The notes under the pieces were generated by a model. That model did no database searches. It saw nothing but the letters and a program-made list of their open reading frames with translations, and was not told the origin of the DNA. From Lentisphaeria bacterium (GTDB taxonomy: Bacteria; Verrucomicrobiota; Lentisphaeria; Victivallales; UBA1829), in NCBI GenBank assembly GCA_017615635.1, contig JAFZZR010000099.1:1-64000 (forward strand): DNA of 64,000 nucleotides, read 5' to 3'. The translations under genes were made by a program, and so were the position numbers. This document shows positions 28,279 through 32,785 of the stretch, one piece after another. The stretch's first letter is position 1. The number at the start of each line of letters is the position of its first letter.

Positions 28279-28620
28279 ATGTTGACTCAAGATGAATTTA
28301 AGCAGGCGCTGGAGGCGGAGATCCGGAAGGCGGGATCGCAAACTGCTCTGGCCGAAAAGCTGGGAATGACGCAAAGTCAGATTTCGGACTATCTTCGGGG
28401 GCGCTTTCAGGTGGAGAATATAACGATCGGAAATCTCTATAAACTTTTCCCGAATACGCAGATCAAGTTATCAGGATCAATCACTGCAGAGCCTATTGCA
28501 AAGTCCGTGGAAGATCAATTATTGGAAGTCTACCGGAGACTAACACCCGAAGAAAAAGTCAGATGCCTGGCCATCGTCATCGCCAACTTCCCCGACAAAA
28601 TCAGGAAGCGGATGACATGA
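28279..28620 (+). CDS. XRE/Cro-like repressor
   Basis: 113 residues, starting MLTQDEFKQALEAEIRKAG. The helix-turn-helix is QTALAEKLGMTQSQISDYLRGR at ~20-41. The C-terminal ~45 residues are helical (EDQLLEVYRRLTPEEKVRCLA) and probably mediate dimerisation. It is divergent from the 70-residue XRE gene. Its start codon lies just after the palindrome GTTTAAG-8-CTTAAAC. The arrangement resembles a phage-type repressor pair. Confidence 0.8.
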   Translation: MLTQDEFKQALEAEIRKAGSQTALAEKLGMTQSQISDYLRGRFQVENITIGNLYKLFPNTQIKLSGSITAEPIAKSVEDQLLEVYRRLTPEEKVRCLAIVIANFPDKIRKRMT

Positions 28621-28698
28621 CGATTATAAATGCCGCCGGATACACACCATAACCTTGCTCCCGCCGATAACAAAGCAGATTCCTGTTGTGCGGAGCAA

Positions 28699-28823
28699 TG
28701 CTTCATCTGCCTAGGCGAGTAATTTGTTATGAAGCAGCGCTTCGCGCTATGAAGCGTGCCTTCGGCACATGAAGCGCTTTGCGGCGCCGCCGCAAAGCAT
28801 GAAGCGAAGCCTTGACAGGCTTC
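28699..28823. repeat. Array of ATGAAGC-linked hairpins
   Basis: Four copies of ATGAAGC (28729, 28749, 28769, 28799) are each followed at once by a perfect but different hairpin: AGCGC-TTC-GCGCT, GTGCC-TTC-GGCAC, GCTTTGCGGC-GCC-GCCGCAAAGC (10-bp stem) and GAAGCC-TTGACA-GGCTTC. An opening segment TGCTTCAT (28699-28706) is the inverted form of the motif and can pair with the first ATGAAGCA. Stems differ while the linker is constant. It lies between the XRE gene and tRNA-Pro. Confidence 0.8.
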
Positions 28824-28826
28824 ATT

Positions 28827-28855
28827 GACCATTTTTGCTCAGCAAAAAAATGGTC
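28827..28855 (-). terminator. Hairpin overlapping the tRNA-Pro 3' end
   Basis: On the minus strand GACCA plus a T run and GC pairs with GCAAAAATGGTC across a TGA loop. The left arm starts inside the tRNA (its last G and ACCA), so the mature CCA end would be base-paired in the precursor. It may be a terminator or a processing signal. Confidence 0.45.
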
Positions 28856-28927
28856 GGAGCAGAGGGATTCGAACCCTCGGCCTATTGGTCCCAAACCAAT
28901 CGCGCTACCAGGCTGCGCTATGCTCCG
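28851..28927 (-). tRNA. tRNA-Pro (anticodon TGG)
   Basis: 77 nt on the minus strand. Acceptor arms CGGAGCA / TGCTCCG, D-arm GCGCAGCCTGGTAGCGC, anticodon stem-loop GATTGGTTTGGGACCAATAGG read as anticodon TGG (quoted with flanks), and T-arm GAGGGTTCGAATCCCTC are all present. CCA is encoded at the 3' end (28853-28851). Confidence 0.95.
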
Positions 28928-29078: not shown

Positions 29079-29155
29079 GGATCCTTAGCTCAGTCGGTCA
29101 GAGCAGGTGACTCATAATCACTTGGTCGGCGGTTCAAGTCCGTCAGGATCCACCA
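29079..29155 (+). tRNA. tRNA-Met (anticodon CAT), integration target
   Basis: 77 nt. Acceptor arms GGATCCT and AGGATCC, D-arm AGCTCAGTCGGTCAGAGCA, anticodon loop CTCATAA, T-arm with GGTTCAAGTCC, encoded CCA. The CAT anticodon could also mark an Ile2 tRNA, but the loop CTCATAA fits elongator Met. Its last 46 nt are repeated at 32740-32785, so the gene was regenerated by an integrating element. Confidence 0.93.
29110..29155 (+). repeat. Left attachment site (att repeat)
   Basis: 46 bp from the anticodon loop to the CCA end of tRNA-Met, identical to 32740-32785. Typical of tyrosine-recombinase integration into a tRNA 3' end. Confidence 0.92.
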
Positions 29156-29733
29156 ATTTATTCCCAGCTCAAAATCCCCATAGCATTCATCGTTTCAGCC
29201 TCATTTTCTCTTTTGACGACCCGTCTTGAGTTCTCTACGCGGGCTTCCTCTCCTTTTCTCTCTCTTTGCGTTCTTTTCCGACTGTCCGAGACAAAATGAA
29301 TAACAAATGAATAACAAGTTTTTCAAGGCTCGGACACTGACGGCATAAGATATCCCGTCCCGCCGATTTTGCAAGTCGGGACAACAGGTTCCCGGTAATC
29401 GCGTGTCTCCAGACAGCGGATTCCCCCCGGCCCGATCATTGCTGCTGCCGTCATGGCATCCCCCCCTTTCTCTTTACCCTTCTTTACCCTCTTCTACCCC
29501 TTATACCGCTGATGATGGCCCGGCATTCCGGGCTTTTGCAGTGCGTTTGTCGCTGCATCACCCCCTTTCCTGCCACCATGAGATAAAGGCATACCGGTCC
29601 GGAACAGATCGTAGAAAGACCGAATGCGCCTCAAAAAGACAGCAGAAATGAAAAAAACGCTTTTTCATTTTACGCATCTGCAATGGTAGAACGCTTCTCT
29701 TAACCCACGCGTTCGGAAAGGTTGATACAACTT
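29156..29733. other. Gene-free stretch with inverted and direct repeats
   Basis: No convincing gene. It contains TGTCCGAG (29283-29290) / CTCGGACA (29329-29336) enclosing two direct copies of ATGAATAACAA, then GTCCCG (29357-29362) / CGGGAC (29377-29382). Such clusters beside an att site could bind the integrase/excisionase or be a replication or regulatory region; this is inference. A pyrimidine-rich stretch follows at ~29400-29520. Confidence 0.45.
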
Positions 29734-30015
29734 ATGAAAGAGACATCACTTGCTCTCATTCGCACCGTCCTGGACGGAGACAACACCGTAACCAAAGAAC
29801 AGAACGACCACATCATGCGCACCTGCAAGCACCCCATCATGCGGCGTAAACTGATCAATGCAAAACAGGCCATGAGCATTCTGGAAGTGTGTCGTCCGAC
29901 ACTTCTGGCTTATGTAAAGCGCGGACGCCTGACGCAAATCAACATCTCACCCCGCAAGGTCCGGTTTGATGAAGCAGAGGTCCGCAATCTGGCATACCGT
30001 GGAGTAACCGACTAA
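29734..30015 (+). CDS. Excisionase-like MerR-type DNA-binding protein
   Basis: 93 residues from ATG 29734, with GGAAAGG 12 nt upstream; a TTG at 29722 is less likely. The C-terminal half KLINAKQAMSILEVCRPTLL then YVKRGRLTQINI and RKVRFDEAEV is the helix-turn-helix with wing of excisionase/HTH_17 proteins (sequence quoted in parts). It is the natural partner of the integrase in the same element and would bind near the left att site to direct excision. Confidence 0.8.
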   Translation: MKETSLALIRTVLDGDNTVTKEQNDHIMRTCKHPIMRRKLINAKQAMSILEVCRPTLLAYVKRGRLTQINISPRKVRFDEAEVRNLAYRGVTD

Positions 30016-30144
30016 CCAAATCACTCCATCCATGCTGTCCCTCCATCCGTTTTTTCAGATATCAGGGGGGACAGCGCGGCTGGAGAAAAGACATCGTATA
30101 GTAAGATAAATTAACGGTGGAAATCCCACCAGAAAGGACACTAT

Positions 30145-30294
30145 ATGAACAACCAAATTCAAGCCGTCACATCAGCTGCGGCGACCGACACCCCATTCTT
30201 TTGGAGAAACGTAACCGAAGAGAATGTCTGGGATGCCATTTCCGGCTCCTTCCTCGAAACCATCTGCAAGGCTTCTGCTGCAAGATGCTTATAG
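30145..30294 (+). pseudogene. 5' remnant of a gene cut by the reverse-transcriptase insertion
   Basis: ATG 30145 follows AGAAAGGA. The frame reads MNNQIQAVTSAAATDTPFFW onward for about 40 residues before entering sequence antisense to the reverse transcriptase and stopping at 30292. The start context and composition look genuine, so a gene of the element was probably interrupted near 30265-30285. Its function is unknown. Confidence 0.5.
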
Positions 30295-31076
30295 ATCTTT
30301 GCAACAAGTCTATCATGGGGAACATTGTCGAAGAACGCTTTCAAGTCCAGTATGATTCCGAACTTATATCCCTCGGCTCTGATCTTGTCCACTTCGGCAA
30401 TCGCATCAGCCACGCGACGGTTCTTCCGGTATGCATAGGAGTACTCACTCCAAGTGTCCTCCGGCGTATTCTTAGTGACAGCCAGCAGGATCATGTTTTG
30501 TACCACCCGGTCCAGAACCGTAGCGATTCCCAGTTTACGTTTCTTCCCATTAGCCTTCGGTATCTCAGTAATACGCACCTCATGAGGCACATACTTCCCT
30601 TGCAGGATCCGTTGCCGGATTTTTTCCCTGGCTTCCGGGTCATTCAATAGCGGCACACAAACCTCTCTGACAGTCTTGCGATCGCATCCTACAGCCTTTC
30701 GGGGTTCAGAATTGACCTTTACCAAGGCCGCATTAAAGTTCGTGTCGGCAACAATCTGCTCAAGCAGATTTGGAACATTGACAGTCGGAATTGGATGTTT
30801 GCCCAACCAGGGATCATATACCCCGTACAGGCCACTCCGACCGTTTGAAAATGCGGCCTTGTTCCGACCGCCAGTGAAGGATCTGGCATCAGTCAGACCG
30901 ACTTGTAGACGCGGAGCTGTTGCAGTACCTTGTTCTCCTTTCTTGTGCTGCAGGGTGCGAACCGTGTCCGGTTTATGCTGACTGGGGTCCTGCTTTTCAG
31001 CATGTGCGCTACAGCCAGCATGAGTTTTGTAATTTGATGTGTGTTTGTTGTTGGTCTTCTTATTATGCGTCTTCAT
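30159..31076 (-). pseudogene. Truncated group II intron-type reverse transcriptase
   Basis: 305 codons. The N-terminal ~85 residues are basic and low-complexity. From ~100 the sequence is a group II intron-like RT: PHEVRITEIPKANGKKRKLG, IATVLDRVVQNMILL, SEYSYAYRKNRRVADAI, and domain 3 IILDLKAFFDNVPHDRL (~241-257) with the first catalytic Asp. Homology stops near residue 265. The catalytic YxDD box, thumb and maturase domains are missing, and the remaining ~40 codons are antisense to the broken gene at 30145. No intron domain V was found. It cannot be an active RT by itself. Confidence 0.85.
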
Positions 31077-31179
31077 CTGAACTGTTCCTTTCTATTTTTT
31101 CAGATGGTTTTCATTGTTCTGGTTCCGTATGGATCGTCTCTTTACCATACATCAACCGTAAATGAAGACGCGTCAAGAA

Positions 31180-32598
31180 TCATGAATCAAGAGTAAGTCC
31201 CGCTCCCTCCTTCCGGATAATATCGAATATAGCATGGAGCTTGTCATCCGGAAGGGTTGTGATTGCAGCCGCCAGTTTTTCGCGGTTTATCGGCGAAACA
31301 CCTTGTGCTTGAAAAACGGGCAGCCTTTTTATCGCTTTTTCCTTTGCTTCGTCAGAAATATGGGCATAGTGCCGAGTCATGGCAATGCTTCCATGTCCGA
31401 CGATGGCGCCGACAACATCCAACGGGACTCCGGCATTGGCACAGAAGGAGACGAACGTGTGCCGGAAGCTGTGCAAACTGTAGAGATTCGCCCGAAGAGC
31501 CCGATGCCCCTTGTCTTCAGAGGAAGTGGTGTCCTGCCCGGTGGCGCACATGATAATCTTCTGGACATCACCCTGAACACCGCTGTGGTTCCGTTTATAG
31601 CGCTCCGCGACAGAGGGAATGATGTAGTCCTCATGCGGACGGTTTCTGTTTTTGAAGGCGGAGGCTTCCTTGAGGGCGCCAGCCAGTTCCGGATGCAATG
31701 GCAGCGATACTGCCCGGTTATTGGTCTTTCTGGCGGTCTTATGGGGGATATAGGTTATCGTCCCCTGTTCCATATTGACATTCGACCAGCGCATCAGACA
31801 GCCGTCCTGTCCTCGGCAGCCCGTCCAGCAGCAGAGCATCAGCAATATGCGCATTTCATCTTTGTACAGCGGCTCATATTGCAAGGTGCGCTCTACCATG
31901 ACATGTTTCCGGCCCTTTTCCATTCGCATGACCTTTGTTTTGTAGAAGAACCCTGTCCTGAAACCATCGAATATTGCCTTGACCTGTTCTTCCGTAAATG
32001 CCAGACGGCTCTCCGTGTCAGTCGGTTTTCCGGTGATATGTGCAAATGGGTTTTCTTCCAGTCCTGCCGGTTCGAGGATATGGGAAAAGATCAGCTTCAG
32101 GGCTTGGCGGTAACAGTTATAGGTCCTGCCGGAGACCTTCCTTTCATTCCATATATGAGAGAAGTAGCTGCCAGCTTCATCTGGAGTAATCTGTGCGGCA
32201 TGCTGGATTTCAGGCCGTTCCCGCTCCAACCAGTTGATGAAACGCCGAAGCGCGGCTTCATACCCATTCAGAGTCTCTTTCCCGCTATCCGGACGGGTGT
32301 ACTGCTTCAGATACACCTGCCATATCTCCTGGATGGGGATTGACCCTTCATGCCTCAGCTTTTTGGCTTTTGCAATGTGAAGAGCGATCTCTTCCTTCTG
32401 TTCCGCCCGGAGTACCGGACGGAGAAGTGCGGCAGCTGCCTCCGCATCTTTGCGTGTCGTTACGGGCTTGTCGTCTTTGCCGCGCAAAGTGGTGGTCTTT
32501 GTTTTCCCGCCTGTTGTAAGTTTCAGACAGAAATGGCTGCCGGACTTGACGATGGTGCCAGTCCCCTTTTCACGAATCAATCTTCTGGTACGAGACAT
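31180..32598 (-). CDS. Tyrosine recombinase / integrase of the element
   Basis: 472 residues. An N-terminal AP2-like arm-binding region (GTIVKSGSHFCLKLTTGGK) and a SAM-like core-binding domain (LNGYEAALRRFINWLERE) precede the catalytic domain. Catalytic residues visible: Arg in CWTGCRGQDG, HSFRHTF (H-x-x-R), GH in VGHGSI, and Tyr in RHYAHIS. It would integrate the element into tRNA-Met. The gene reads inward from the right att site, its start 141 bp from it. Confidence 0.95.
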   Translation of the reverse strand: MSRTRRLIREKGTGTIVKSGSHFCLKLTTGGKTKTTTLRGKDDKPVTTRKDAEAAAALLRPVLRAEQKEEIALHIAKAKKLRHEGSIPIQEIWQVYLKQYTRPDSGKETLNGYEAALRRFINWLERERPEIQHAAQITPDEAGSYFSHIWNERKVSGRTYNCYRQALKLIFSHILEPAGLEENPFAHITGKPTDTESRLAFTEEQVKAIFDGFRTGFFYKTKVMRMEKGRKHVMVERTLQYEPLYKDEMRILLMLCCWTGCRGQDGCLMRWSNVNMEQGTITYIPHKTARKTNNRAVSLPLHPELAGALKEASAFKNRNRPHEDYIIPSVAERYKRNHSGVQGDVQKIIMCATGQDTTSSEDKGHRALRANLYSLHSFRHTFVSFCANAGVPLDVVGAIVGHGSIAMTRHYAHISDEAKEKAIKRLPVFQAQGVSPINREKLAAAITTLPDDKLHAIFDIIRKEGAGLTLDS

Positions 32599-32619
32599 AG
32601 TTGCATATCCTCTTTTCGA

Positions 32620-32650
32620 ACAGATTCTTTGCGATTTGTTGCGAATCTGT
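32620..32650. promoter_or_regulatory. Inverted repeat upstream of the integrase
   Basis: ACAGATTC (32620-32627) and GAATCTGT (32643-32650) form a perfect 8-bp inverted repeat with TTGCGA repeated inside, 22 bp upstream of the integrase start and 90 bp from the att site. Likely an operator or recombinase arm site. Confidence 0.45.
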
Positions 32651-32739
32651 CGTCAAAAGAGTCAATGCGTAAAAAATGAATACTATAACTTCTATGCCTT
32701 TTGGAAAAATTGAGCGTATTTATAACAAAAAACGGCCTA

Positions 32740-32785
32740 ACTCATAATCACTTGGTCGGCGGTTCAAGTCCGTCAGGATCCACCA
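32740..32785 (+). repeat. Right attachment site (att repeat)
   Basis: Perfect 46-bp copy of the tRNA-Met 3' end (29110-29155). It lacks the 5' half of the tRNA and so is not a functional tRNA. Confidence 0.92.

Follow-up and report, generated by a model that had tools for sequence, protein, structure and literature searches.

A short array of hairpins, each preceded by the constant linker ATGAAGC, is probably a non-autonomous mobile repeat, present here as a slightly truncated copy and read by its structure and by the linker as a tag; that this mobile repeat is selected for structure we consider very likely. The array adjoins a tRNA-Pro gene in a 64,000-nucleotide stretch of contig JAFZZR010000099.1 from a Lentisphaeria bacterium (hereafter the window). 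Its linker words, at 28729, 28749, 28769 and 28799, are each followed directly by a hairpin, and an inverted TGCTTCAT at 28699-28706 opens it. The parts of the array and of its surroundings are as follows.

28689-28836 (approximate), minus strand: the repeat copy, 97% identical to positions 26145-26292 of contig C187 of the same genome; the tRNA-proximal arm is intact and the distal arm is a stub
28700-28706, minus strand: last linker left in the distal arm, ATGAAGC on the minus strand, able to pair with the linkers of the proximal arm
28707-28728, no strand assigned: central segment between the arms, CTGCCTAGG in the window
28729-28748, minus strand: unit 1, ATGAAGC linker and hairpin AGCGC-TTC-GCGCT (5 bp), with the loop GAA on the minus strand
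28749-28768, minus strand: unit 2, ATGAAGC linker and hairpin GTGCC-TTC-GGCAC (5 bp)
28769-28798, minus strand: unit 3, ATGAAGC linker and 10-bp hairpin GCTTTGCGGC-GCC-GCCGCAAAGC
28799-28823, minus strand: unit 4, ATGAAGC linker and terminal hairpin GAAGCCT-TGAC-AGGCTTC (7 bp)
28827-28855, no strand assigned: junction palindrome GACCATTTTT / AAAAATGGTC, an inverted copy of the tRNA-Pro 3' end (GACCA) and T-run trailer, joining the array to the tRNA
28851-28927, minus strand: tRNA-Pro (TGG) with encoded CCA, the host site of the array
29137-32785: integrated element of ~3.6 kb in the 3' end of tRNA-Met, with perfect 19-bp att repeats at 29137-29155 and 32767-32785
29722-30015: small HTH/excisionase-like ORF, named by eye
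30159-31076, minus strand: truncated reverse-transcriptase-like ORF, named by eye
31180-32598, minus strand: tyrosine-integrase-like ORF, named by eye

The array is confirmed not to be a chance arrangement. Three ATGAAGC-hairpin-ATGAAGC units with perfect 5-bp outer stems stand in the window; every other 7-mer of the window forms at most one such unit, and in simulations (20 windows, first-order Markov) the best count for any 7-mer was 0 or 1. The word itself occurs 22 times in the window against 9.4 expected, and the folding z-scores of the array are -3.8 on the plus strand and -5.2 on the minus strand. An earlier, sequence-only reading had placed the linker words, an opening inverted copy and stems of 5, 5, 10 and 6 bp between 28699 and 28823. 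The words, the inverted copy and the first three stems are as it described them, but the last stem is 7 bp (GAAGCCT/AGGCTTC), and the boundaries have to be moved: comparison with C187 puts the repeated copy at about 28689-28836, followed by the junction palindrome. A 100-residue ORF (28530-28832, minus strand) crosses the array and is probably spurious.

Selection on the hairpins can be read from the spacers between linkers, which are self-complementary hairpins of 13-23 nt. We compared 51 distinct 13-nt spacers lying between GCTTCAT words, the linker as it reads on the other strand, picked regardless of pairing. All 51 have at least four of five Watson-Crick pairs, through 25 different stems; 96.9% of the cells are paired, against 57% after shuffling, and 115 cells are changed on both sides, against 38. 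The covariation score is 1.041, compared with 0.272 for the shuffled spacers (reached in 0 of 500 shuffles) and 0.05-0.17 for slid registers. Because the units are partly related by descent, the shuffles overstate the significance, a weakness of which the slid control is free. The stems evolve by compensatory change. What had been proposed from the window array, a constant linker with variable yet self-complementary stems and a selection or copying mechanism acting on structure, is thus borne out by these 51 units, by covariation above both controls and by the dispersal of the repeat in the manner of a mobile element. The triloops are polar, with GNA in 35 of 66 and TNC in 2 of 66 on the GCTTCAT strand; C-GNA-G triloops form very stable DNA mini-hairpins.

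Arrays of this kind are scattered in many copies through genomes of gut Lentisphaeria, Kiritimatiellae and Clostridia. The genome of the window itself (3.72 Mb in 204 contigs, 88.7% complete) also holds the 148-bp copy on C187, 97% identical and directly behind tRNA-Pro (GGG), and diverged copies with other stems on contigs C63, C114 and C169, a copy number that is a lower bound. Measured against the copies on C187 and C114, that of the window lacks most of the distal arm. On C114 the array is separated by ~0.9 kb from an intact tRNA-Ser and adjoins a duplicate of the end of this tRNA (CTCCGCCATTT), as though an island had entered between tRNA gene and array. Among 36 genomes of the family the pattern of two linkers is common, and its reversed control is nearly absent; among 388 genomes of the phylum, abundance is confined to particular genera, with 162 linker pairs in G294, 30 in G197, 26 in G200 and 47 in G395, a member of another class. 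In a scan of 84,980 species genomes, the hairpin arrays among the matches listed came almost only from gut Lentisphaeria, one Kiritimatiellae MAG from the rumen (217 linker pairs in 1.8 Mb) and gut Clostridia MAGs (5 to 28 linker pairs each). The sequence-only reading had staked itself on the existence of other arrays with the same linker; these are present, with different stems, in its own genome and in relatives, and on this point it is not refuted. Copies are often found at contig ends, as expected because repeats break assembly.

Two other sources of the pattern were rejected. Many public three-linker matches are tandem repeats without hairpins, and coding tandem repeats were accordingly set aside; a viral origin finds no counterpart in the 120 viral loci with the pattern, none of which has hairpins on both sides (the viral control for pairing gave 2 of 196), and a phage match sought for the window array was not found. 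In the Kiritimatiellae, the arrays at L544-L563 share their intergenic space with another repeat (..GTAAGACGGGGACGTCTTACAGCCCAGTTA..) and often start with a hairpin, CTAAATTCG-TGTC-CGAATTTAG, which at L551 is replaced by a palindrome with local T-rich sequence.

The preferred sites are directly 3' of tRNA and 5S genes, with another version in prepilin genes. Among 28 sampled tRNA-type loci, about 17 abut an intact tRNA (Pro, Val, Ser, Glu, Phe, Ala), five a short 3' tRNA remnant and one a 5S rRNA gene, as judged by eye. Read on the tRNA strand, a complete tRNA-type element begins with the tRNA-CCA, the T-run trailer, an inverted copy of the trailer and a GAAGCC..GGCTTC hairpin; four GCTTCAT words with three hairpins between them and the central segment follow, and at the far end ATGAAGC words with longer hairpins lead to a terminus near AATGAGAG. 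The T-run trailer (TTTTTTTGCC) is also carried by array-less tRNAs of the same genomes and is therefore native, implying that the inner arm of the junction is the inverted copy of the target. Such a copy is found at every one (19 of 19) of the array loci whose tRNA is intact. At nine array loci it includes a further 5-7 nt of the tRNA itself, and these nucleotides agree with the tRNA concerned (Pro GACCA, Val CACCA, Ser CGCCA, Ala TCCACCA). A few array-less tRNA trailers carry an inverted copy too, so that the junction rule is strong, yet not exclusive.

Most tRNAs are without an array (in the window's own genome, 2 of the tRNAs read), and occupancy differs between relatives. At tRNA-Pro (TGG) the array is present in G008 and absent in G007, with 388 bp upstream 89% identical, a comparison of presence and absence only, in which the far flank is not alignable. 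At tRNA-Ala (CGC), the flank shared by G007 and G005 picks up again right at the distal end of the element in G005. No clean target-site duplication was seen in these two comparisons, both of which involve partial empty sites. A different palindromic repeat (TCCTTCGCT..GCGGATGGC or GCTACGGATGGC..) lies directly behind tRNA-Ala or tRNA-Val at L379, L367, L401 and L411; these genomes appear to have a repeat hot spot at their tRNA 3' ends. At L323 (G006:C196), regular tandem repeats lie past the array, with one frame reading a repeated FETPIKLHYSQT; by eye they are CRISPR-like.

The second version resides within genes. Many prepilin genes of G294 hold a related array, in each case at one and the same codon of the FTLIELLV motif. 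All 23 of the 23 loci read, from G294 and other Lentisphaeria records, are in-frame insertions at one codon, and the reading frame through the insertion is open in every one. These insertions (~64 codons, ..SKTCQTGVLPLYYLKKENKKMPYYACEAS..; L479-L504 in G294, and L092, L105, L107, L115, L139 and L310) contain the same hairpin array and duplicate the FTLIELLV motif, the stretch between its two copies being 64 codons in 11 of 12 complete cases. The right junction is again a palindrome with the target, here with its codons (TCGATCAGCG-TTCA-CGCTGATCGA).

Why is the linker constant? In two-armed elements the linkers of opposite arms are complementary, and in predicted folds linker pairs with linker and the hairpins project at four-way junctions; forbidding the linker pairing costs 13-40 kcal/mol. 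Complete tRNA-type elements are predicted to fold into a ladder of such junctions. The central segment of the C187 copy also contains CTGTCAAGG, complementary to CCTTGACAG of the terminal hairpin, whereas the window version is imperfectly so. A variant found at tRNA-Val (CAC) and tRNA-Ala (CGC) has CTTCAC for every linker of one arm and GTGAAG for every linker of the other, a joint change that is expected if linkers pair. As the full reason for a constant linker, however, pairing is insufficient: the one-armed arrays of the Kiritimatiellae and of the prepilin version keep the linker too, so that pairing cannot be its sole role and the linker must also be a recognition word.

Some of these features would suit a functional RNA, transcribed as the 3' trailer of the tRNA and then freed as a multi-hairpin RNA with a protein partner, for which the linker would be the binding motif (compare the GGA repeats of CsrB), or with a role in regulating mRNAs. 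We regard this as improbable. The tight 3' linkage to tRNA and 5S genes, the polarity of the loops toward the tRNA-sense strand and the lack of a terminator-like site before the array on the tRNA strand all favour it, but the same modules stand in frame in prepilin coding sequences, between genes in Kiritimatiellae and in Clostridia away from tRNAs, and the array is missing at most tRNAs. Stem mismatches, which bear on RNA versus DNA, do not clearly favour G.U (8) over A.C (5), and a search of the window against Rfam 15 returned only two tRNAs above the gathering score, with no match for the array.

Less probable again is a structural or terminator element of the BIME type, whose hairpins would end transcription, shield 3' termini or be bound by chromosome proteins where stable RNA genes end. 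Such a role would fit the position at the 3' ends of stable RNA genes and the resemblance, in many copies, of the array-strand terminal hairpin and T-run to a tRNA-facing terminator; it would leave the constant linker and the target-specific inverted copies unexplained, presence is sporadic between close relatives, and a scan found no terminator-like sites in the window array. We consider it most unlikely that the array is the remnant of an integrative element that inserts at tRNA 3' ends, either one of its ends or its attachment region, and so belongs to an island. Several arrays do lie beside 3' tRNA remnants displaced by insertions (L305, L311, L319, L326, L329), and two G007 arrays have a four-helix-bundle-like gene as common neighbour. 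Most, however, stand immediately next to intact tRNAs, in the displaced cases an island seems to have entered between tRNA and array, and the window island uses tRNA-Met with its own att repeats. This adjoining element, which the sequence-only reading had noticed, is real, with its 19-bp repeats, tRNA-Met site and integrase, and is separate from the array.

For the preferred reading, a mobile repeat recognised by structure and linker, we propose the following mechanism. The body of the repeat is a series of modules in which a 7-nt linker, constant in sequence and reading GCTTCAT on the tRNA strand and ATGAAGC on the opposite one, is followed by a short hairpin whose sequence is free. An enzyme acting in trans would read single-stranded DNA, or possibly RNA, by the linker tag and the hairpin shape; since such an enzyme would read shape and not stem sequence, the stems could drift while still paired. 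The element would be joined to its target either through base pairs between the two or through fold-back copying of the target. Recognition as single-stranded DNA by an HUH-like or other hairpin-reading enzyme is a tentative proposal, somewhat short of an even chance, and copying of the target by fold-back is doubtful. The analysis found no mobilising enzyme, and a Y1/RAYT transposase was rejected as the mover: PF01797 (Y1_Tnp) is absent from 13 of 21 array-rich genomes, including that of the window, and no array units lie near Y1 loci at the 35 such loci inspected. The suggestions that the array is a decoy or the substrate of a hairpin-adding transposase likewise go unsupported, the Y1 transposase not being resident in most array-rich genomes. 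No shared gene is carried beside the arrays, except at L311 and L312 in G007, where both arrays are followed by a homologous small four-helix-bundle gene (S23/IVP-like by eye).

The nearest relatives in behaviour are REP, BIME and REPIN sequences, short hairpins whose 5' foot bears a constant unpaired tag and whose many dispersed copies are intergenic; they form arrays and inverted pairs and occasionally lie within genes (PMC3733652, PMC6006769). Our hairpins are likewise short, perfect, dispersed, multi-copy and extragenic (intragenic in the prepilin version). Their tag, however, is GCTTCAT or CTTCAC rather than GTAG, GTGG or CGTC (as defined in PMC3733652 and PMC6006769), and it flanks the 51 units invariantly, as GCTTCAT, on both sides; stem sequence is free and not conserved in the family, each arm has 3-4 units with a fixed linker, the targets are tRNA ends or prepilin codons, and the cognate RAYT/TnpA-REP transposase is missing from most carriers, as the Y1 counts above indicate. 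The array thus works like a REP or BIME and is not one, because it differs in tag and transposase. Miniature elements derived from IS200/IS605, in which a single-strand hairpin with a short foot guide pairs with the target (PMC6006769), provide the nearest mechanistic model, although no TnpA was found near the array, which has several hairpins per arm and an end complementary to 7-20 nt of target rather than 4.

MITEs resemble the array in being short, non-coding, non-autonomous, palindromic and of high copy number. In the array we recognised neither shared terminal inverted repeats linked to a DDE transposase nor a direct target duplication; the distal end ..AATGAGAG(TT) recurs, and the other end is target-derived. 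Rickettsia palindromic elements are palindromic repeats that insert in frame into protein-coding genes. Only the prepilin version shares this property with them (they are mentioned in PMC3733652), and it hits one codon of one gene family, in other hosts and with modular arrays. A CRISPR array, with constant repeats, unstructured unique spacers and cas genes, was rejected, since the spacers here are self-complementary hairpins.

A more far-reaching reading, which we think unlikely, is that these arrays form a new class of mobile element read by shape, in which an enzyme acting in trans would take the tag and any hairpin, each insertion would copy its target back inverted (tRNA 3' end, 5S trailer, prepilin FTLIE codons) with the ends adapting to new targets, and modules would have spread between gut Lentisphaeria, Kiritimatiellae and Clostridia.

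Finally, these arrays constitute an abundant repeat family in uncultured gut bacteria, of which we found no earlier description in the open-access literature, only papers on REP-type sequences. They account for odd predicted proteins, the prepilins with in-frame 64-codon insertions, and for assembly breaks beside tRNA genes in these genomes, and they could give rise to spurious proteins in databases. Should the junction copying prove real, it would point to insertion by copying the target back instead of by cutting it and leaving a direct duplication. The arrays are, moreover, a natural record of selection on nucleic-acid structure, in which the stem sequence is almost unconstrained.
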